From: an archaeon
GTDB taxonomy: Archaea > Nanobdellota > Nanobdellia > Woesearchaeales > GW2011-AR9
Direction of reading: 5' to 3'
Assembly (NCBI GenBank): GCA_018696395.1
Contig: JABHQR010000018.1
Location: forward strand, 1 to 49,418
Length of the DNA stretch: 49,418 nt
Of this stretch, positions 13,610-23,007 are shown in pieces (the first letter of the stretch is position 1; every line of letters starts with the position of its first letter). The position numbers were made by a program, and so were the translations under genes. The notes under the pieces were generated by a model, which made no database searches, was not told where the DNA came from, and saw only the letters and a program-made list of their open reading frames with translations.

Positions 13610-14206
13610 CTAAAACAGTTCTATTACCATACCTTCATAGCCAGGATTAACTAATTTAGTACCATCAATTTCATCAACTACACCAAAATTTTCATGGATA
13701 TGTCCAGCAATCACTAGTTTAGGTTTCATTCTTTCAATAAATTTTCGATAATCTTTATTACCAACGTAACGATCGTTAATCAAATCAAGTTTGGTTTTGT
13801 ATGGTGGGCCATGAGTCATAAAAATAATTTTCTTACCTTTATATTTACCATACCATTTTCGAGCAATTTCTCTAAAATCAGAGTCTGATGCTGCAAAACC
13901 ACCACCACCATAAGACAATATAATAAAATCGCCAATAATTAATGCTTTCTTGTTAACATCTTCACAATTAGAATAATCTTTTACAGTCTCTCGATAATTT
14001 TTACTTTCTTCATGATTTCCAGGGATTAAATAAACTGGCTTATTAATTGAGTTTAATCTTTTCAAAATAGCCCTCATATTAGCTTCAAAAGAAGTAAAAT
14101 CTCCCGCTATTAAAACAAACTGAATATCATCTTGCTTAGCTCTTTTTACGAGTTTTTTAAGAAGTCCAGTGTCACCATGTAAATCTGCAAAAGTTAGGAA
14201 TTTCAT
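13610..14206 (-). CDS. Metallophosphoesterase (calcineurin-like)
   Basis: A cytoplasmic phosphodiesterase/phosphatase with a two-metal site. All family blocks are visible: FADLHGD (D8, H10), IAGDFT (D36), PGNHEE (N64, H65), MTHGPPY (H132) and AGHIHENFG (H169, H171), ending with LVNPGY. At 198 residues it is a minimal member of the YfcE/MPP class. The substrate cannot be told from sequence. It is flanked by a convergent gene and by eS1 upstream on the same strand (68-bp gap). Confidence 0.9.
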   Translation of the reverse strand: MKFLTFADLHGDTGLLKKLVKRAKQDDIQFVLIAGDFTSFEANMRAILKRLNSINKPVYLIPGNHEESKNYRETVKDYSNCEDVNKKALIIGDFIILSYGGGGFAASDSDFREIARKWYGKYKGKKIIFMTHGPPYKTKLDLINDRYVGNKDYRKFIERMKPKLVIAGHIHENFGVVDEIDGTKLVNPGYEGMVIELF

Positions 14207-14274
14207 GTTTAAAATTTATTTTACTCATTATTTTTAAAATATATTTAAAAAAAAAAGAATTAATTAAAGGAAAA

Positions 14275-15084
14275 TTATTCTTCCTTATTTTCTTCAGTTT
14301 CTTTTTCAGTAGAATCTTCTTCAACTTTCACAGCAGGTTCAGTTTCTTCTTTAGTTGTTTCTTCTTCAACTACTGGTCCTTCACTTTTTTCTGACTGTTC
14401 AGTTTCTTCTGTTGCTACAACTACTTCTTCTGTGTTTTTTTCTTCAACTGCAGATTCTTCTGTTAACTTTTCACTTTTATCCATAACTAAAGTTTTGCCC
14501 TTACTATCAATTAACCTAACTGACCTAATTACAACTTCTTTTACAGGATAAATTTTGTTAAGTTTTTTCTTAATACCTAATTGAGTTCTAAGATTCACTA
14601 AACTGTTAATAAAATTTTCAAAATTAGTTGCTACCACTACTTCTTCTAACAAATCATTAATAGTGGTTCTGATTGTTGATCCAGTTGATCTTTTATTTCT
14701 GTTAAGAGTTACAATCAAAGTTTTAACTACCATTTGTTCGCCAGATTTGTTTGTAAATTTGAATACACTATCTAACCGAGATGTTCTTTTTCTAACAATT
14801 CTTTTGATATAAGTTGGAACAACTTCATAACCAACAGTACTAGTTTGAAGTGTTTGTCCTTTAGTATCTTTAATTTTTAAAGAAATGTGAATGTTTTGAT
14901 CTTTCATAGACCCAGTTAATGATTTTAAATTAACTTTCATTACTCGACCGATTGCTTGTTCAGATTTATCTAAATAAGTTTCCCCAATTTCTTTCATACC
15001 AAAAATTGTTGGTGAAACTACTTTAAACCATGTTTTTTTCTTAACTTTAATTTTACTTTGTTTTTTCTTATCCTTTTTTGCCAT
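14275..15084 (-). CDS. rps3ae: Ribosomal protein eS1 (S3Ae) with acidic C-terminal tail
   Basis: An archaeal/eukaryal small-subunit protein near the mRNA exit. The core (residues about 15-205) shows KKTWFKVVSPTIFGMKEIGE, GYEVVPTYIKRIVRKRTSRL, STIRTTINDLLEEVV and IYPVKEVVIRSVRLID. After the core comes a tail of about 60 residues dominated by Glu, Thr and Val, which is unusual because most archaeal eS1 proteins (about 200-220 residues) stop near here. The N-terminus is basic (MAKKDKKKQSKIKVKKK). GAGGT lies about 18 bases before the ATG. Paired with the Lys-rich tail on eL31, charged extensions seem to recur in this genome. Confidence 0.93.
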   Translation of the reverse strand: MAKKDKKKQSKIKVKKKTWFKVVSPTIFGMKEIGETYLDKSEQAIGRVMKVNLKSLTGSMKDQNIHISLKIKDTKGQTLQTSTVGYEVVPTYIKRIVRKRTSRLDSVFKFTNKSGEQMVVKTLIVTLNRNKRSTGSTIRTTINDLLEEVVVATNFENFINSLVNLRTQLGIKKKLNKIYPVKEVVIRSVRLIDSKGKTLVMDKSEKLTEESAVEEKNTEEVVVATEETEQSEKSEGPVVEEETTKEETEPAVKVEEDSTEKETEENKEE

Positions 15085-15319: not shown

Positions 15320-16585
15320 TTACAAGTATGGTTTAAATTCAATTAAATCTTCCCTATTTGGAACCAACCTTCTTAATTCTGGATGAAATATTTTTCCAGA
15401 ATTAATTATCAAACCATCAGTAGGAAGTTCTTTACTATATGCTAATGATTGAATTATTTCAACTAGTAAATCAGAAACCATATTAAAATATGCATATGAT
15501 GCTCTTTTAGCAGTACTAAGCCCACCAGGTATCATCCCAACAGTATTGTAAAGAACATGAGTGTTGGGTAATTTATCTAAAGGACAACTATTATCAAAAG
15601 TATGGTTCTCTGGACCAACCCAATAAAATTTATTTGGCTCACCCCACCTGGACTCAAACGTGTAACGTACCCCTCCTTGGATAGGATTACCTTCACAATC
15701 CTTAGTACTACTTAAATCAGGATCACAAGTAATATCTGCAAGAACTGCCCCCTCTTTAATATTTGTTAAAATTTCTTTAGTGATAATCCTAGAGTTCCCT
15801 GGTTTCCATTGTGTTGCATTAATTATCCCATCATAATTAGAGATTAATTCTAATAATTTTTGCGGATTATTTGTAACATCTTTGTATAATAAATCATAAC
15901 CAATCCCTGCTTGTTCTAATTCTTCCCTTGCACCCGTTGCAGCCCTACCATTTTCCCCACCAAAAATAGCAATCTTAAGTTTTTTTTCATCTGAACCAAT
16001 TTTTTCGTAAGCTTCATGCACCATATCTTCATCAGAACCTTCAACAGATGGGAAAAAATGAAAAGCTCCTTTTTTATCAGAATCCTTGCCAGGGGTTCTT
16101 ATTTGATAAGAAAGTTTTATTCCCTCCATTAATAATCTTGCTCCACCAACACCAGAATAATAACCTGTAGTTTCCCCCTCTCTTTTTTGAATTTTACAAG
16201 TTTCAGGCGAATAAGCAGTTACGTTCCCAGCATTAAGTAAAGCTCTTAACTGTTCAATACCTTGACCTTTTTCAACATGAGCATAGAATACATTAATCTT
16301 ACCAGAAGCAATACCATATTGGGGCCTTTGTTTAACATCAACTAAAATATCTGAGCGCTTTAACAAGTTTTCAAGATCAACAATTTCAGCACCAACTTCT
16401 TGGTAATTTTCATTTGAGTAACTAGCTCTCTTTCCAGCAGAGTCTTCTATAAGAAAATTTAATTTATAATTAGAAGAAAAATCTAATCGATCTAAAAGTT
16501 CATTGATACAAAAAGGAGGAAGAGAAACCCTATTATCACCTTTTTTTAGAGTTAACGGAACACCAACATTAATAATATTTTTCAC
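15320..16585 (-). CDS. Saccharopine dehydrogenase-like NAD(P) oxidoreductase (AlaDH/PNT superfamily), copy 1
   Basis: A member of the alanine dehydrogenase/transhydrogenase/saccharopine dehydrogenase superfamily, 421 residues. The N-terminal catalytic domain has NVGVPLTLKKGDNRVSLPP, DVKQRP (K86) and FYAHVEKGQG (H104), corresponding to the Lys/His pair of saccharopine dehydrogenase (Lys1). The nucleotide-binding loop GGENGRAATGA (210-220) resembles the Lys1 pattern G-x-x-GR-x3-GA. A later block ADITCDP...GGVRYTFESRW matches the VDISCD...T region. Family members form or split secondary-amine conjugates of amino acids and 2-oxoacids; the substrate here is unknown. It is divergent from the C39-like gene, and a second, different homologue lies 3.3 kb away, around a ligase and an amidotransferase. 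Confidence 0.75.
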   Translation of the reverse strand: MKNIINVGVPLTLKKGDNRVSLPPFCINELLDRLDFSSNYKLNFLIEDSAGKRASYSNENYQEVGAEIVDLENLLKRSDILVDVKQRPQYGIASGKINVFYAHVEKGQGIEQLRALLNAGNVTAYSPETCKIQKREGETTGYYSGVGGARLLMEGIKLSYQIRTPGKDSDKKGAFHFFPSVEGSDEDMVHEAYEKIGSDEKKLKIAIFGGENGRAATGAREELEQAGIGYDLLYKDVTNNPQKLLELISNYDGIINATQWKPGNSRIITKEILTNIKEGAVLADITCDPDLSSTKDCEGNPIQGGVRYTFESRWGEPNKFYWVGPENHTFDNSCPLDKLPNTHVLYNTVGMIPGGLSTAKRASYAYFNMVSDLLVEIIQSLAYSKELPTDGLIINSGKIFHPELRRLVPNREDLIEFKPYL

Positions 16586-16899
16586 AAGACAATTAATTCT
16601 AAATAGACTTATATTTATTTCGCTTCTTGAAACATTAAAAGAAAAAGATAGTTTAATTAACTAAATTAAGAACATTATTAAATGTTAAATTGAGTTTAAG
16701 AAGATAATTTCAGAGTATGGAAATAAATAAATAGTTAATATATTGTTTTTTATTCAATGATAAGGAGAAACATACCTTTGAAGAGAGTATGCCTTTATTA
16801 AGTTATGACACAAACCAACCAAAGCCGGATTAATTTTACTAAAGAATTTGACAATTTAACAAAAGACTTATAATTATAAAAAATAACATTTTAATTAAA
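16586..16899. other. 314-bp divergent intergenic region
   Basis: This carries the promoters of the dehydrogenase (minus) and of the C39-like gene (plus; ttataattataaaa at 16870-16883, about 24 bases before the ATG). A slightly more GC-containing stretch at 16755-16835 (gataaggagaaacatacctt...aaagccgg) stands out from its surroundings, but I could not fold it into a convincing RNA or find an ORF. Confidence 0.35.
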
Positions 16900-17502
16900 A
16901 TGATCCCATATCTACAAACAACATCATTTACTTGTGCAGCATCTTCTTTACTAACAGTTATGCACAATTTTAATCCAAAGATAGAATTAAATAAAGAAAA
17001 TGAGTTTGAGATTTGGAGGAAAACAGCACTTTTACCAACCAGAGCATCATCAATTTTTGGATTAGCTAGTTTAGCTAAAAAAATAGGTTTAAATTTTAAA
17101 GTAGTTGTAGAAAAAGAAGAGTATGATTTCCCAGATTACAGATTTTATAGGTATAAAAAAACTGATATTGAACATGCTAAATATCTGGAGAATTATTATT
17201 TACAAAAAGCAAGGAAAAATGAAGTTAATGTCGAAGTTAAACCGATTAATAAAGAAGACATATTAAAAGAATTAAATGAAAGTAATTACTTAATACTAAG
17301 AGTTAATGTTAAACCGATTAGAAAATTAAAGAAAAACACATCCAATTATATCGTTGTTAAAGGTTATAAAGATAACCATTTCGAAATTATTGATCCACGA
17401 TTAGGATTTTTATCTATACCTGAAACAGTTTTTGATGAAGCTTTCCAAACATTAGAAACTAAAAAGTATAGAGATAGTAGAATGATTGTATTTAAGAAAT
17501 AA
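16900..17502 (+). CDS. C39-like papain-fold protein, catalytic His not evident
   Basis: The start IPYLQTTSFTCAASSLLTVMH matches the Q..Y/F-TC-x-AS-L block of peptidase C39/C39-like domains (Q6, C12). The C-terminal NYIVVKGYKDNHFEIIDPRLG matches the HFVVL-GYD...I-DP block with the expected His replaced by Asn (or shifted). The 200-residue length fits a stand-alone domain without transporter fusion or signal peptide. The catalytic Cys is present but the His is in doubt, so it may be a binding protein or an acyltransferase/ligase-type papain fold. Related C39-like proteins occur beside amidoligases in other genomes, and here it lies next to a GCS2-type ligase and an amidotransferase. Confidence 0.6.
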   Translation: MIPYLQTTSFTCAASSLLTVMHNFNPKIELNKENEFEIWRKTALLPTRASSIFGLASLAKKIGLNFKVVVEKEEYDFPDYRFYRYKKTDIEHAKYLENYYLQKARKNEVNVEVKPINKEDILKELNESNYLILRVNVKPIRKLKKNTSNYIVVKGYKDNHFEIIDPRLGFLSIPETVFDEAFQTLETKKYRDSRMIVFKK

Positions 17503-17712
17503 ATACATTTGTTAATTTCTAAGTAAAAATTATTAAAATATAGATTAACCAAATGACCAATATGCCCAGATTTAGTTTCTTTGTGAATTAAAAGCAAAAT
17601 TATGCTTAAATGCAAATAAAAAAGTAGTAGAACTAGCTTCGCCGTTGATTAAAGGATTAAAACTATAGTTAAAATACAAATCAAGGCAACAACAACATAC
17701 GGAATACAGAAA

Positions 17713-17722
17713 GGTTTAAATA
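17713..17722 (+). promoter_or_regulatory. TATA box of the ligase-amidotransferase operon
   Basis: GGTTTAAATATTT-type element, the best archaeal TATA match in this intergenic region. A start site 25-27 bases on would fall at about 17743-17746, leaving a leader of roughly 57 bases that includes the palindrome and a Shine-Dalgarno site. Confidence 0.45.
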
Positions 17723-17750
17723 TTTCAAAGATTTACCTAATTAAAAATAA

Positions 17751-17787
17751 TTTTACAAAAAAGCAAATATGTGCGTTTTTTGTAAAA
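17751..17787 (+). promoter_or_regulatory. Perfect 12-bp inverted repeat in the leader of the ligase operon
   Basis: TTTTACAAAAAA at 17751-17762 is exactly complementary to TTTTTTGTAAAA at 17776-17787 across a 13-base loop, whose GC/GC can extend the stem past a bulge. It starts just after the predicted transcription start and ends 6 bases before the AGAGG Shine-Dalgarno. It could be a dimeric-repressor operator or an mRNA hairpin controlling translation; the sequence alone does not decide. Confidence 0.6.
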
Positions 17788-17802
17788 AAAAAAGAGGCGT
17801 TT

Positions 17803-18999
17803 ATGAAATTAACAACCGGATTAGAGTTAGAATTTCATTTGATGGATGAAAATGGATTTCTTATGAATGCAGCACCTGGAATCTTAAATGATAACAGAAG
17901 CGAGGGATTATTATATGATGAAGCTGCTAACACACAAGTTGAAATTAATTCTGACCCTGCTGAATCAATTGCAGAACTTCACGAGGGATTATTACAAAAA
18001 ATAAATTTGGTAGAAGGTATATTATCAGACCACAATGTATTAGCGTCACCATTTGCGATAGAAAATGGTGCAGGAAAAGGAACACAATTAAAGAATACAA
18101 ATAGGTTTGGACAATATGAATCAATTATTGGAGAATCAAAAAAAGATTTATTATTAGGAATCAGTGGGACACATTTACATCAATCACAGATACACGGAAA
18201 AAAACTAGAACAATATTGGTTATTACAATCATTGGATTCATTATCGTATGCAACCACATCAACTTCACCAATATTTAGAAATGGAATAAATAACATTAAC
18301 AATTATAGAATATTAAGTACTAGGCATGGAGCATTTAAAAATTTCCCTTTACATGGACAGTTACAAGATTATCCAAAAAATTTAGAAGAGATTAATGTGA
18401 TGAATCAAGCAAGATATTTAGATTGGCTATCCAAAGCAGAAAATAAAACAAATTTTGAGACTCATTTTGCCCCAGACAATACAGGATATCACCCAATTAG
18501 AAAAAGAGACCACATAGGACCAACTGGGACATTCGAAATAAGAAGTTTTGACATCGCACCATTAAACTATTTACTAGCTTCTGCAGCCCTTTACAAAGGA
18601 GCTACAAAAAGCATGACTGAAAGAGACATACCAGTAGAGATAACAAAAAAAGATTTAGATTACAAGTTTAGTAAAGACAAAATTGTTTTGCCAAACATAG
18701 ACACATTAAGATTTTTTGAAAGTGAAGCAATTAAGTATGGGTTAAAATCAAAACATGTTTCAGATTACTTAAGAGCAGTCCTTAATTTTTCGGAACAAGG
18801 TTTGTCAAAAGAAGATGCAATGTATTTAACACCAATAAGAGAAATGTTAGATACTAAATTGAACCCATCATCATTGATTATGCAACACATGAGAGACAGA
18901 GGTTATCAAGGACATCACTTTAACCCTGAACAATCAGCAAAAGCTAACCTATATGTAAGAAATTTGCATGAAAATAGTTTAAGGGAGAGGATTTATTAA
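17803..18999 (+). CDS. GCS2-type carboxylate-amine ligase (glutamate-cysteine ligase-like)
   Basis: An ATP-dependent ligase of the glutamine-synthetase-like GCS2/YbdK fold, which joins a carboxylate (often the gamma-carboxyl of Glu) to an amine. The N-terminus TGLELEFHLMDENGFL carries the Glu-x-Glu metal motif, followed by TQVEINSDPAESIAELHEGL, ISGTHLHQSQ, PLHGQLQDYP and GPTGTFEIRSFDIAPLNY. The length of 398 is normal. The substrate is not known; gamma-glutamyl transfer to Cys or another amino acid is the family precedent. It is the first gene of an operon with the class II amidotransferase (41-bp gap) and a saccharopine-dehydrogenase-like enzyme. AGAGG precedes the ATG. Confidence 0.8.
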   Translation: MKLTTGLELEFHLMDENGFLMNAAPGILNDNRSEGLLYDEAANTQVEINSDPAESIAELHEGLLQKINLVEGILSDHNVLASPFAIENGAGKGTQLKNTNRFGQYESIIGESKKDLLLGISGTHLHQSQIHGKKLEQYWLLQSLDSLSYATTSTSPIFRNGINNINNYRILSTRHGAFKNFPLHGQLQDYPKNLEEINVMNQARYLDWLSKAENKTNFETHFAPDNTGYHPIRKRDHIGPTGTFEIRSFDIAPLNYLLASAALYKGATKSMTERDIPVEITKKDLDYKFSKDKIVLPNIDTLRFFESEAIKYGLKSKHVSDYLRAVLNFSEQGLSKEDAMYLTPIREMLDTKLNPSSLIMQHMRDRGYQGHHFNPEQSAKANLYVRNLHENSLRERIY

Positions 19000-19040
19000 C
19001 TTTAATTTTATGATTTATTATAATTACAGAGGCAGATAAA

Positions 19041-19811
19041 ATGTGTAGAATGATTTTAGGCATTGGTGAAATAGAGATAGATATTCTTCTCCAAGGAATT
19101 ATCAACATGGCTGAAGATAATAATTTCAAACATGAAAGAAATGAAAAAGAAACATTTCAACATGGGGATGGATGGGGGATTGGTTACTTATTAAATGACC
19201 AAATTTTGGTTAAGAAATCAATAAAAGAGATTTATTCTAAAAAAAATAGAACTATTAAAAAATATCAAAATTTAAAATCAAATATTTGTATGATACATGC
19301 AAGGAAAAAAAGTGTTGGAGAACTATCAAAAGAAAATTGTCATCCTTTTTCTAGATCATTAAAAAAGGAGAAATTTGTATTCTGCCATAATGGCACTGTA
19401 ATAAGCGGGTTTAATATTGGAAGATTCAAACCAAAAGGAGACACTGATTCTGAAAAATTATTTTTAACAATAATAAATAAAATTGGTATTTTGCAAAAGA
19501 AAGAACCAATAAAAAATAATCAAAAAGAAAATGATTTGATTATCAAAGCAATTAAAGAGGTATTAAATTCTATTCAAACTAGAAAAGGTACAAATATTTT
19601 TTTTAGTTCAAAAGATAAAATATATATTGGATTAAAAGATTGCGCCATGCCAAAATATTACGAAATGTGGATAGCTAAACAAAAAGATAATTTAATCATA
19701 AGTTCTGAAAAATTAAAATGTGCAACACAATTTAATTGGGGAAAAATCGAAACAGGAAAAATCTTGAAGATAGATAATAAAAACCTTAACATTAAAGAAT
19801 ATTCTTTATGA
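19041..19811 (+). CDS. Stand-alone class II glutamine amidotransferase (EgtC/YafJ-like)
   Basis: N-terminal-nucleophile amidotransferase: after Met removal the nucleophile is Cys2 (MCRMILG). The glutamine-site blocks HGDGWGIGY, HARKKSVGELSKENCHPF, FCHNGTV and GDTDSEKLF are all present. There is no synthetase or isomerase domain (256 residues in total), as in EgtC and YafJ. EgtC hydrolyses a gamma-glutamyl bond in ergothioneine synthesis after a GCS2 ligase has made gamma-Glu-Cys. This gene follows a GCS2 ligase and its stop overlaps a downstream ATG (ATGA at 19808), so a gamma-glutamyl hydrolase or glutaminase role is plausible. EgtB and EgtD are absent from the window. Confidence 0.85.
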   Translation: MCRMILGIGEIEIDILLQGIINMAEDNNFKHERNEKETFQHGDGWGIGYLLNDQILVKKSIKEIYSKKNRTIKKYQNLKSNICMIHARKKSVGELSKENCHPFSRSLKKEKFVFCHNGTVISGFNIGRFKPKGDTDSEKLFLTIINKIGILQKKEPIKNNQKENDLIIKAIKEVLNSIQTRKGTNIFFSSKDKIYIGLKDCAMPKYYEMWIAKQKDNLIISSEKLKCATQFNWGKIETGKILKIDNKNLNIKEYSL

Positions 19812-19867
19812 AAAGAGTAATCAAATTCCATAATTTATTTAAAGTAACAAAACTGGTTAGTTTTAAA

Positions 19868-20947
19868 ATGAAAATCGGAGTAATTAAAGAAACTAAAGTA
19901 AAAGAACATCGTGTTGTTCTGATTCCAGAAGATGTAAAAAAACTCATTGAAGCAGGACATGAAGTTTACATAGAAAATAATGCGGGGTTAGAAGCAGGAT
20001 TCAATAATGAGGATTACCAAGAAGCAGGCGCAATCATTGTTTCAACAGAAGAAGTATACAATATGACAATGCTTTGTAGGGTTAAAGAACCACCAATCTC
20101 CTCTTTAAAAGAAGATCAAATTTTAGTAGGATATCTTCATGTTGAAAAAAATCAAAATCCAGAACTTCTTAACGCGTTACTGGAAAAAAATGTAACTGCT
20201 TATGCCATGGAAGAGTTCAGAAGTCAGAAAAACCCCAATATTAGATTAATTGGTTTAGGGTTTGAAGCAGGTGTTGTTGGAATGTTTGAAGGATTAAGAA
20301 CATATGGTAAAATGTTAGAAGAAAAAGAATTAGAAAATCCATTTCATAAAGTTAAATCAATGTGGGAATATCCTAATAAAACTGAAGCATACTTGGCCAT
20401 TAGAAGAATCAATCCAAAAAAGATTAAATTCAAAGTTGCAATTGCAGGTTATGGAAAAGTTTCCAAAGGTGCCCAGGAAGTTCTTGCTCAAGTCAGTTGT
20501 CCCCCTTTGATATTACGAGAAGAAGATACCTACAGAGCTAAAATTATGGGAAATGATTTTGCTTATATCTGGAAACACTTACCAGAAATAGATATTTTTG
20601 TTAATGCAATTGTTTGGAAACCAGGACAAGAAAGAATTTTAACAAATGAAGACCTAGAAAAGATGACTAACGATTCTTTGATCATAGATGTTTCCTGTGA
20701 TGCAGGTGGAGGGATACAAAGTTGTAGACCCACTTCTTGGGAGAATCCAACCTATGATGTTAACACAAGTAATAAGAAAAAAATTAAATTTTATTGTGTA
20801 GATAATTTACCCTCAGCAATGGCACATGATGTTTCGATTAGTTTGAGTAGAATGGCAGTGAAGCAGATACTTAAAATTGCTAATGGAGAAGAAGTCACAT
20901 CAGGATTAATGACCAAAGAAGGTAAATTTGTTTATACACCTGTTTAA
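19868..20947 (+). CDS. Saccharopine dehydrogenase-like NAD(P) oxidoreductase, copy 2
   Basis: The second, shorter member (359 residues) of the AlaDH/saccharopine dehydrogenase superfamily in this locus. MKIGVIKETKVKEHRVVLIP opens the domain. CRVKEPP (K73) and YLHVEKNQN (H91) carry the catalytic Lys/His pair, and AGYGKVSKGA (193-202) binds the nucleotide. IIDVSCDAGGGIQSCRPT and YCVDNLPSAMAHDVS match saccharopine/CEO-synthase-like enzymes. The start at 19868 is chosen because homology begins there. An upstream in-frame ATG at 19808 overlaps the amidotransferase stop as ATGA and would add 20 residues, so coupling from that ATG remains possible. It shares the HVEK-x-Q signature with copy 1 but is clearly diverged, which suggests two steps rather than redundancy. 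Confidence 0.78.
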   Translation: MKIGVIKETKVKEHRVVLIPEDVKKLIEAGHEVYIENNAGLEAGFNNEDYQEAGAIIVSTEEVYNMTMLCRVKEPPISSLKEDQILVGYLHVEKNQNPELLNALLEKNVTAYAMEEFRSQKNPNIRLIGLGFEAGVVGMFEGLRTYGKMLEEKELENPFHKVKSMWEYPNKTEAYLAIRRINPKKIKFKVAIAGYGKVSKGAQEVLAQVSCPPLILREEDTYRAKIMGNDFAYIWKHLPEIDIFVNAIVWKPGQERILTNEDLEKMTNDSLIIDVSCDAGGGIQSCRPTSWENPTYDVNTSNKKKIKFYCVDNLPSAMAHDVSISLSRMAVKQILKIANGEEVTSGLMTKEGKFVYTPV

Positions 20948-20973: not shown

Positions 20974-22185
20974 CTATCCATTAACTTCAAACCCTTTCTT
21001 CCTCAAAATCTTTCTTACAGAATTGTCAATCCTATCTTCAGAAATTTCTCCCTCTAAAATTGCTTGTTCAATAACTTCAATCATATGATATATTTCGTTA
21101 GGGTCTTCATCAAAATTTAAAATAATGTCGTGCCCTGCTAAAACTAAATCAACATACAATTGATCTTTATCTTCATAATAACTTAACAAACCTAACATAT
21201 TAATTTCGTCAGAGATTACTAAGCCATCATAATTATTTTTAAAATTGTAAATTACATTTGGTGATACAGAAGAGGGATACCCTTCAGAATTTATTGCCCC
21301 ACTAACTATTAAATGGCTCACCATTACAAGACTAGGTAAACCTTGCCCAGTAGTCCCATAAGAGAGTAATTGGTTATAAGGATACAAATCATTTTCAGTT
21401 ATTTCTGCAACTACTAAATTTTCATGAGGATCTAACGTTACTAAAGTTTTTCCAGGATAATGTTTAATTGTAGATAAAACACCTTCTGATTCTAGTGCTG
21501 CAACATAAGCTCCAGCTAATTCAGTTACTTCTTCCTTCTCACCTGGAAACGTCCTACATTTCCAGATATTATCTTCCAAGTCCACAACTGGTGCAAAATT
21601 AAGGTTAAACCCTAAACTAGAAAGATATTGACCTTCTTCAAAACCCTTAGCAGTAGATTCTTCTAAATTTGTAATATTAGAAGTGATTGTAAAGTTCCTG
21701 TAATTAGCAAAAGGATTTAAACATCCTTCCAGATCCACAGTTACAAAGAAAGGTATATTCATACCCTCTTGAAAATCAGAGATTGTATCAATAAATGTTT
21801 CTTCTGAGTCCATTGCAAAAAAATGAACACCACCAAGTTGCATTTTTTGCCAATATTCTAAATTATGTACACCACCATGAGTTATTATCATTTGAGCAAC
21901 TTTTTGTTGTAAAGTCATATTATTTAATTTAATAGAATTATCTTCTTCAAAAAGAATGTCTGAAAGATCTGGTATAAAATAACCTTTCGCTTGAGCCAAA
22001 TTCATTGATGCTAAAATAATTGTGATAGTAAATAAAATCAAAAATAATTTAAATTCTTTATCTTTGAAATAAAATTTATTCGAACCGAACTTGTTTGAAG
22101 AATTACCAGTCAGATTAGTCTTACCACTATTTTTTTGATTTATTTTCTTACTAACCTTACTTATACTTCTTTTCTTTGTCACCAT
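20974..22185 (-). CDS. Membrane-anchored GH3 glycosidase (NagZ-like beta-N-acetylhexosaminidase)
   Basis: An extracytoplasmic glycoside hydrolase. A basic cytoplasmic N-terminus (1-45) precedes a membrane helix or signal anchor (LFLILFTITIILASMNLA, 47-64). The TIM barrel shows QKVAQMII, VTVDLEG, LGFNLNFAPVVDL, FPG, a KHYPG loop with D252 and H254 in the position of the NagZ Asp-His general acid, VMVSHLIVSG, and nucleophile D326 in GLVISDEINM. NagZ cleaves GlcNAc-anhydroMurNAc and related amino-sugar glycans, and bacterial NagZ is linked to peptidoglycan recycling. An archaeon should not have peptidoglycan, so the target may be a surface glycan or bacterial wall. It lies 8 bp after a small membrane protein on the same strand. 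Confidence 0.85.
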   Translation of the reverse strand: MVTKKRSISKVSKKINQKNSGKTNLTGNSSNKFGSNKFYFKDKEFKLFLILFTITIILASMNLAQAKGYFIPDLSDILFEEDNSIKLNNMTLQQKVAQMIITHGGVHNLEYWQKMQLGGVHFFAMDSEETFIDTISDFQEGMNIPFFVTVDLEGCLNPFANYRNFTITSNITNLEESTAKGFEEGQYLSSLGFNLNFAPVVDLEDNIWKCRTFPGEKEEVTELAGAYVAALESEGVLSTIKHYPGKTLVTLDPHENLVVAEITENDLYPYNQLLSYGTTGQGLPSLVMVSHLIVSGAINSEGYPSSVSPNVIYNFKNNYDGLVISDEINMLGLLSYYEDKDQLYVDLVLAGHDIILNFDEDPNEIYHMIEVIEQAILEGEISEDRIDNSVRKILRKKGFEVNG

Positions 22186-22767: not shown

Positions 22768-23007
22768 ATGAAAATAAAAACTTATACTAACCCCGCATGT
22801 CCTTGGTGCATTGAATTAAAGGCTTGGTTAAAAAAGAAAAAGATTGAATACGAAGATTTAGATATAACTGAAGAAGATGAATTTAGAGAAGAATTAGTTG
22901 ACAAAACAGGCCAGTTAGCAGTACCAGTAGTTCTAATTGGAGATAATTTTGTGGTTGGTTTTAATCCTAAAAAGATTGAAGAATTGATTAAAAATCAAAA
23001 AGAGTAA
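22768..23007 (+). CDS. Glutaredoxin/NrdH-like thioredoxin-fold protein
   Basis: A 79-residue thiol-disulfide carrier with the active site C11-P-W-C14 and the conserved cis-Pro region QLAVPVVLIGDNFVVGFNPKKIEEL. The CPWC motif and the F-x-x-K-x-x-E-L ending resemble small glutaredoxin-like proteins paired with thioredoxin reductase or used by ribonucleotide reductase. A TATA-like element (acttatttaaaag) lies about 30 bases upstream, consistent with an almost leaderless start. No reductase is nearby; the DsbA-like protein at 27.8 kb is the other thiol-redox gene in the window. Confidence 0.88.
   Translation: MKIKTYTNPACPWCIELKAWLKKKKIEYEDLDITEEDEFREELVDKTGQLAVPVVLIGDNFVVGFNPKKIEELIKNQKE

Follow-up and report, generated by a model that had tools for sequence, protein, structure and literature searches.

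A conserved GCS2 ligase, amidotransferase and C39-fold core with accessory LKR-like dehydrogenases in a DPANN archaeon: a candidate pathway for an amide-linked conjugate

The window analysed here is a stretch of 49,418 nucleotides that represents a single contig of the 1.38-Mb genome (98.9% complete) of a DPANN archaeon. Between positions 15320 and 20947, it contains five genes coding for a GCS2-family carboxylate-amine ligase, a stand-alone class II glutamine amidotransferase (GATase), a C39-like protein and two saccharopine-dehydrogenase-like enzymes (SDH1 and SDH2). An earlier note on this DNA had proposed that these genes encode a new pathway for an amino-acid conjugate. The comparison with related archaea supports this class of pathway, but the exact pathway of five enzymes is not conserved. 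The conserved unit is the ligase-GATase-C39 core, and the dehydrogenases are accessory to it.

Gene layout and conservation of the locus

The five open reading frames (ORFs) of the earlier note were all confirmed, and are organized as follows.

15320-16585, minus strand: SDH1 (421 amino acids), a diverged dehydrogenase of the AlaDh/PNT superfamily with the motif HxxKxQ
16900-17502, plus strand: C39/papain-fold protein (200 amino acids), a conserved member of the module
17803-18999, plus strand: GCS2-family carboxylate-amine ligase (398 amino acids)
19041-19811, plus strand: stand-alone protein with the class II glutamine amidotransferase fold, EgtC/Dug3-like (256 amino acids), a predicted amide hydrolase
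19868-20947 (ORF from 19808), plus strand: SDH2, an LKR-like dehydrogenase (359 amino acids from the probable start at 19868)

The ligase and GATase genes are separated by 41 bp, as previously described, and the gene of the C39-like protein is located 300 bp upstream of the ligase gene in the same direction. Because the two SDH genes lie on opposite strands, only the ligase, GATase and SDH2 genes can form one operon. The overlapping ATGA junction formerly described between GATase and SDH2 is likely an artefact, since all the SDH2 orthologues begin at the residue equivalent to position 19868 of the window, which leaves a gap of 56 bp after the GATase gene. The true start of SDH2 is thus probably 19868 and not 19808.

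The counts given here refer to the sampled genomes, with a family set of 49 genomes; the relatives with the module bear the label Woesearchaeota or Nanoarchaeota. In most of them, the module occupies a slot bordered on one side by a metallophosphoesterase gene and an S3ae-like gene and on the other side by a glutaredoxin gene. The GATase is present in 11 of the 13 slot-type GCS2 loci (window included) and is directly adjacent to the ligase in nine of them. This pairing exceeds chance and confirms the ligase and the class II amidotransferase as a conserved pair. The pair is spread across contigs of Woesearchaeota and Nanoarchaeota, usually with the C39-like protein, whose gene was detected in 20 of the 49 genomes of the family. 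The expectation that the whole neighbourhood would recur in related archaea was therefore borne out for the core but not for the dehydrogenases: SDH2 occurs in two of the 49 genomes and a full orthologue of SDH1 was found in a single other genome. The edges of the slot and the remaining features of the window are listed below.

13610-15084, minus strand: left edge of the slot, metallophosphoesterase and S3ae-like protein, with orthologues adjoining the module in most relatives
17751-17787, no strand: inverted repeat with 12-bp arms, just 5' of the ligase gene
20974-22185: glycoside hydrolase family 3 gene, adjoining the module, as do its orthologues in several relatives
22768-23007, plus strand: right edge of the slot, glutaredoxin (79 amino acids; Glutaredoxin, 60.6 bits)

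The name "ribosomal protein S3ae-like" was given from the look of the sequence alone. The inverted repeat is perfect, with a 13-bp spacer, and no counterpart was found upstream of the ligase genes of 11 relatives.

The content of the slot varies between relatives, which have the C39-like gene together with other genes, with the GATase, or with both the ligase and the GATase; locus L134 contains two GCS2-GATase pairs. Genes coding for a glutathionylspermidine-synthase-like ligase are found in slots L033/L127 and L135, a pre-ATP-grasp and an asparaginase_2 in L140, and an ATP-grasp-like gene in L130 and L139, accompanied in L130 by a racemase of the cysteate/Asp type. The latter (L130:349-1089), beside the ATP-grasp-like, C39-like and GATase genes, passes the cut-off of the NCBIfam profile CuyB for cysteate racemase (241 vs 190). 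Two slot genes (L033:4861-5439 and L137:6986-8203) have no match in Pfam.

Folds and residues of the core proteins

In a single-protein Pfam search, the GCS2 ligase is borderline (19.8 bits for a cut-off of 21). However, the profile built from 16 GCS2 relatives matches YbdK and the plant glutamate-cysteine ligase (GCL) in the PDB. The predicted structure (predicted local distance difference test, pLDDT, of 91.5) matches 1tt4, 1r8g and 2gwc; its best structural matches are YbdK, the plant GCL and bacterial glutathione (GSH) enzymes, among which are the E. coli and the bifunctional GSH enzymes. The residues Glu8, Glu10, Glu40, Glu47, His126, Thr243, Glu245 and Arg247 show no variation within the slot group, and His124 hardly any. 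The acidic, HxH and TxExR residues of the active site are thus retained, a pattern as expected for a putatively active ligase of this fold. The enzyme shares the fold and active-site residues of the YbdK carboxylate-amine ligases, but its score against this curated subfamily is 21.2 for a cut-off of 176.4, and it scores far under all the GCL and YbdK cut-offs. It is a diverged GCS2 protein with the YbdK/glutamate-cysteine-ligase fold. The initial family assignments hold for the locus, on the basis of the Pfam matches, the GCS2 family profile and the GCS2 model.

The GCS2 relatives found outside the family are paired with an N-formylglutamate amidohydrolase or with an ATP-grasp of the glutathione-synthetase type. 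A maximum-likelihood tree of the GCS2 proteins shows a grouping largely by partner, with several weakly supported forks and some long branches that meet. The N-formylglutamate amidohydrolase genes are located at L037:8213-8938, L038:1847-2632 and L048:6596-7639, and the ATP-grasp genes, in other families of the order, at L039:8109-8957, L040:10184-11017 and L043:8144-8962. With the glutathione synthase profile, the ATP-grasp of L039 reaches 148 bits, for a cut-off of 272. A review of 2020 reported no GshB homologue in archaea (PMC7278568); these ATP-grasps bear on the question of glutathione synthesis in archaea.

The GATase matches the Pfam family GATase_4 with 94.7 bits. It displays the N-terminal nucleophilic cysteine, the Asn-Gly oxyanion pair and the aspartate of the class II enzymes, and the residues Cys2, Arg88, Asn117, Gly118 and Asp136 are invariant in the 16 aligned sequences. 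As in the EgtA/EgtC couple of ergothioneine synthesis, to which the earlier note had compared the locus, a GCS2 ligase is paired here with a class II amidotransferase. Unlike in that system, the curated cut-offs are missed and the locus has LKR-like enzymes and a pseudo-C39 protein. EgtB and EgtD were missing according to the earlier note, whose statement covers the window. Membership was rejected, since the GATase reaches 34.1 bits for an EgtC NCBIfam cut-off of 218.65 and the GCS2 ligase has no EgtA match. The replacement of the GATase by an N-formylglutamate amidohydrolase beside GCS2 elsewhere argues for a role as hydrolase rather than in ammonia supply, and hydrolysis fits the GATase better.

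Of all the module proteins, the C39-like one is conserved best, with 46-62% identity to most relatives. It matches DUF3335 (70.3 bits) and C39 (36.1 bits), and its model (pLDDT 93.6) has a papain/C39 fold. The nearest folds are those of PeiR (pseudomurein endoisopeptidase), Alr0975 (primitive phytochelatin synthase) and PCAT1, with TM values of about 0.5-0.57. The C39-like assignment stands for the fold but not for a normal C39 peptidase. In the 24 sequences compared, the position of the catalytic cysteine is occupied by Thr (16 sequences), Cys (6), Gly (1) or Ser (1), and that of the catalytic histidine by Asn (18), Lys (3), His (2) or Asp (1); aligning the profile to the C39 domain 6mpz identifies these changed positions as catalytic. 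The window copy has retained the cysteine, whereas its histidine is replaced by Asn. Thus, the protein shares its fold with C39 peptidases, phytochelatin synthase and pseudomurein endoisopeptidase, but the nucleophilic Cys and the catalytic His are not conserved. An active C39 protease was rejected on the loss of both residues in most of the sequences, and the protein is a probable pseudo-enzyme that most likely serves as binding or complex partner. Conserved and catalytically altered, it represents a clean target for finding the molecule bound in the pathway.

The two LKR-like dehydrogenases

SDH1 and SDH2 both contain the domain AlaDh_PNT_N (49.6 bits for SDH1). The motif HxxKxQ is represented by HVEKGQ in SDH1 (residue 103) and by HVEKNQ in SDH2, and is absent from all four AlaDH-like relatives compared. 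Neither protein reaches the cut-off of the alanine dehydrogenase profile TIGR00518 (391.85), with 137 bits for SDH2 and 34.4 bits for SDH1. For the SDH2 orthologue in genome G222, the central region has PDB matches only with human AASS (LKR domain), with the HxxKxQ motif aligned. A role as alanine dehydrogenase or transhydrogenase was rejected on these cut-offs, the motif and the match restricted to AASS. The window enzymes share with the LKR half of AASS and with Lys1 the fold, the HxxKxQ motif and the stretches AGVAGM and GxVSKGAQ; unlike these, they have no Lys9-type partner and are linked to amide ligases and amidotransferases. By their motif, both are read as enzymes of the opine-making LKR/saccharopine type, in agreement with the saccharopine-dehydrogenase-like assignment of the earlier note, and are predicted to couple an amino acid with a 2-oxo acid via a secondary amine.

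Nothing in what was searched assigns them to ordinary alanine or lysine metabolism: no Lys9-type saccharopine dehydrogenase (PF16653) and no third AlaDh_PNT_N gene were found in the genome. The lack of a Lys9-type partner argues against an ordinary saccharopine catabolism. The full orthologue of SDH1 comes from genome G076, which belongs to a different family (50% identity), and adjoins a Lys9-type saccharopine dehydrogenase; no SDH1 relatives were found on plasmids.

Within the family, the second SDH2 is that of G222, a genome from a second genus (66% identity). It directly adjoins the S3ae-like and phosphoesterase genes, and hence occupies the same slot; the contig ends before the core. Further orthologues occur in three other families, with 46-49% identity. 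There, a class I GATase is found beside SDH2 in G014, G149 and G095, a GNAT protein and a YheCD-type ATP-grasp in G095 and G283 (fused in G149), and ATP-grasps of the D-Ala-D-Ala-ligase type in G149. The combination of an LKR-like dehydrogenase, an amide ligase and an amidotransferase thus recurs with unrelated parts. This second, unrelated company of ligases and GATase is the strongest evidence for a putative role of SDH2 in conjugate metabolism.

One such locus, L105:8256-16634, contains an SDH2 orthologue, a class I GATase, an ATP-grasp/GNAT fusion, two D-Ala-D-Ala-ligase-type ATP-grasps, an unassigned protein of 444 amino acids and a pyridoxal-phosphate decarboxylase-like gene. From its gene content, it looks like a biosynthetic cluster of the peptide type.

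Predicted function and competing explanations

The systems for aniline and 1-naphthylamine glutamylate the amine by means of an enzyme resembling glutamine synthetase and undo this step with a GAT-like enzyme (PMC11335346). In yeast, cleavage or transfer of gamma-glutamyl groups is carried out by the Dug2-Dug3 complex (PMC6508711). By analogy with these systems, the core can be seen as a make-and-recycle pair for an amide of the gamma-glutamyl type. The Puu, aniline and 1-naphthylamine systems likewise bring together a ligase, a reversing hydrolase of amidotransferase fold and a redox enzyme at a single locus, and the fold superfamily of the ligase is common to both. Their ligases are glutamine-synthetase-like whereas that of the window is of the GCS2/YbdK type; the redox enzymes of the window are LKR-like and accessory; and the Puu and aniline hydrolase, which we take to be of class I, differs from the class II hydrolase of the window. 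The fungal Dug3, which also has the class II amidotransferase fold, attacks gamma-glutamyl bonds (PMC6508711), but the genes on either side of the core include no recognisable Dug2-like peptidase, and the GATase of the window is linked to a ligase.

We give an even chance to a conserved core by which an amino-acid conjugate with an amide link is made and recycled, the LKR-like dehydrogenases having been added in this lineage. By comparison with the above systems, the most likely function of the core would be to make and recycle a conjugate of the gamma-glutamyl type. Given its fold and its kept residues, the GCS2 ligase would spend ATP on coupling the amine of a small acceptor to a carboxylate, which is most likely the gamma-carboxyl group of glutamate or a similar acid. 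Cys2 of the GATase would hydrolyse the gamma-glutamyl amide, as EgtC, Dug3 and AtdA2 do, which would make the bond reversible. The C39-like protein would most likely act as binding or complex partner. The two NAD(P) dehydrogenases would couple a 2-oxo acid reductively to an amino acid, or cleave the resulting compound; this N-(1-carboxyalkyl) amino acid would form one half of the conjugate. From the observed gene conservation, folds, residues and repeated association, we infer all of the chemistry and the order of the steps, including glutamate as the ligated acid and the order of dehydrogenases and ligase. The accessory genes of the slot (other ligases, racemase and asparaginase-like enzyme) support this mechanism.

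Several points weigh against it. The activities of all the module members and the substrate are predictions. The SDHs are absent from most core loci, the slots of relatives also accept unrelated genes such as a glycosyltransferase and a kinase, and no overlap of 20-41-mer joins the SDH2 and core contigs of G222. The slot may therefore be an insertion hot spot in which the SDHs are only passively co-located. These observations on slots and core loci would also fit SDHs that are separate, ordinary enzymes of lysine/saccharopine metabolism or NAD recycling and landed by chance in a slot with varying content, as would the Lys9-type neighbour of the one full SDH1 orthologue found. We regard this explanation as rather unlikely, given that the genome has no Lys9-type gene, that a second genus has SDH2 in this slot as well and that its orthologues in other families lie close to ligases. 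It can be combined with every reading of the core, so that its likelihood overlaps with those given to these readings and they are not intended to sum to one.

It is unlikely that gamma-glutamylcysteine, or a variant of it, is formed or recycled by the core as a glutathione-like thiol for the neighbouring glutaredoxin, with the GATase and the C39-like protein degrading or binding it and the SDHs as bystanders. The structural matches of the GCS2 model with YbdK, plant GCL and the E. coli and bifunctional GSH enzymes are consistent with such a thiol, as is the fold of the C39-like protein, which resembles glutathione-bound Alr0975. GCS2 relatives adjoin glutathione-synthetase-type ATP-grasps, and in G222 the GCS2 gene adjoins a glutathionylspermidine-synthase-like ligase. 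Moreover, glutathione is cleaved by class II GATases of the Dug3 type (PMC6508711). The glutaredoxin is near the module in most loci, with orthologues in 14 of the loci collected from relatives, but it is also found in loci without GCS2 (L129, L132 and L137) and may merely mark gene order. The low scores of the ligase against every GCL and YbdK cut-off do not favour this thiol, no second ligase was recognised at the window locus (no GshB-type ATP-grasp among the annotated flanking ORFs), and the association of SDH2 with ligases elsewhere is left unexplained.

GCS2 and GATase could also compose a glutamine-dependent amide synthetase, with the GATase freeing ammonia from glutamine and GCS2 attaching it to a carboxylate. 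The product would be the amide of an amino acid or of a dipeptide, for instance a compatible solute similar to N-acetylglutaminylglutamine amide. Such a synthetase would agree with the tight pairing (including the two pairs of L134), with the marine origin stated in the records of several relatives and with the ATP-grasp and GNAT neighbours of the SDH2 orthologues (one fusion), which recall the N-acetylglutaminylglutamine-amide system, but is very improbable, since the GATase occurs without GCS2 in L130 and L132 and is substituted beside GCS2 relatives by N-formylglutamate amidohydrolase, an enzyme for which we know of no supply of ammonia for transfer.

The make-and-recycle reading, with the SDHs and the core taken together, points to an undescribed small-molecule pathway. 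We consider it quite unlikely, as a broader scheme, that DPANN archaea possess a new pathway type in which an LKR-like enzyme makes an opine-like secondary amine acid, a ligase of the GCS2 or ATP-grasp kind links this acid by an amide bond to another amino acid and an amidotransferase-fold hydrolase reverses the reaction, the ligase and hydrolase parts being unrelated between lineages and the pseudo-peptidase being a binding subunit shared in one branch. DPANN archaea, with genomes of about 1 Mb, are thought to have shed most of their biosynthesis. An amide-ligase locus that is kept and actively diversified suggests a small molecule important to these organisms, and the fact that LKR-like dehydrogenases are repeatedly met beside unrelated ligases and amidotransferases hints, in a way that can be tested, at an opine-containing conjugate yet to be described. 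A literature search limited to open-licence papers yielded no account of this set of genes; a 2009 survey of amidoligase operons by Iyer and colleagues reportedly may already describe parts of the ligase/GATase/peptidase theme.

Elsewhere in the genome, no circularly permuted ATP-grasp partner was found. The only match to the RimK profile is on contig C9 (L163:5243-6727), where a RimK-type ligase follows an ORF coding for a retropepsin-like aspartic protease.

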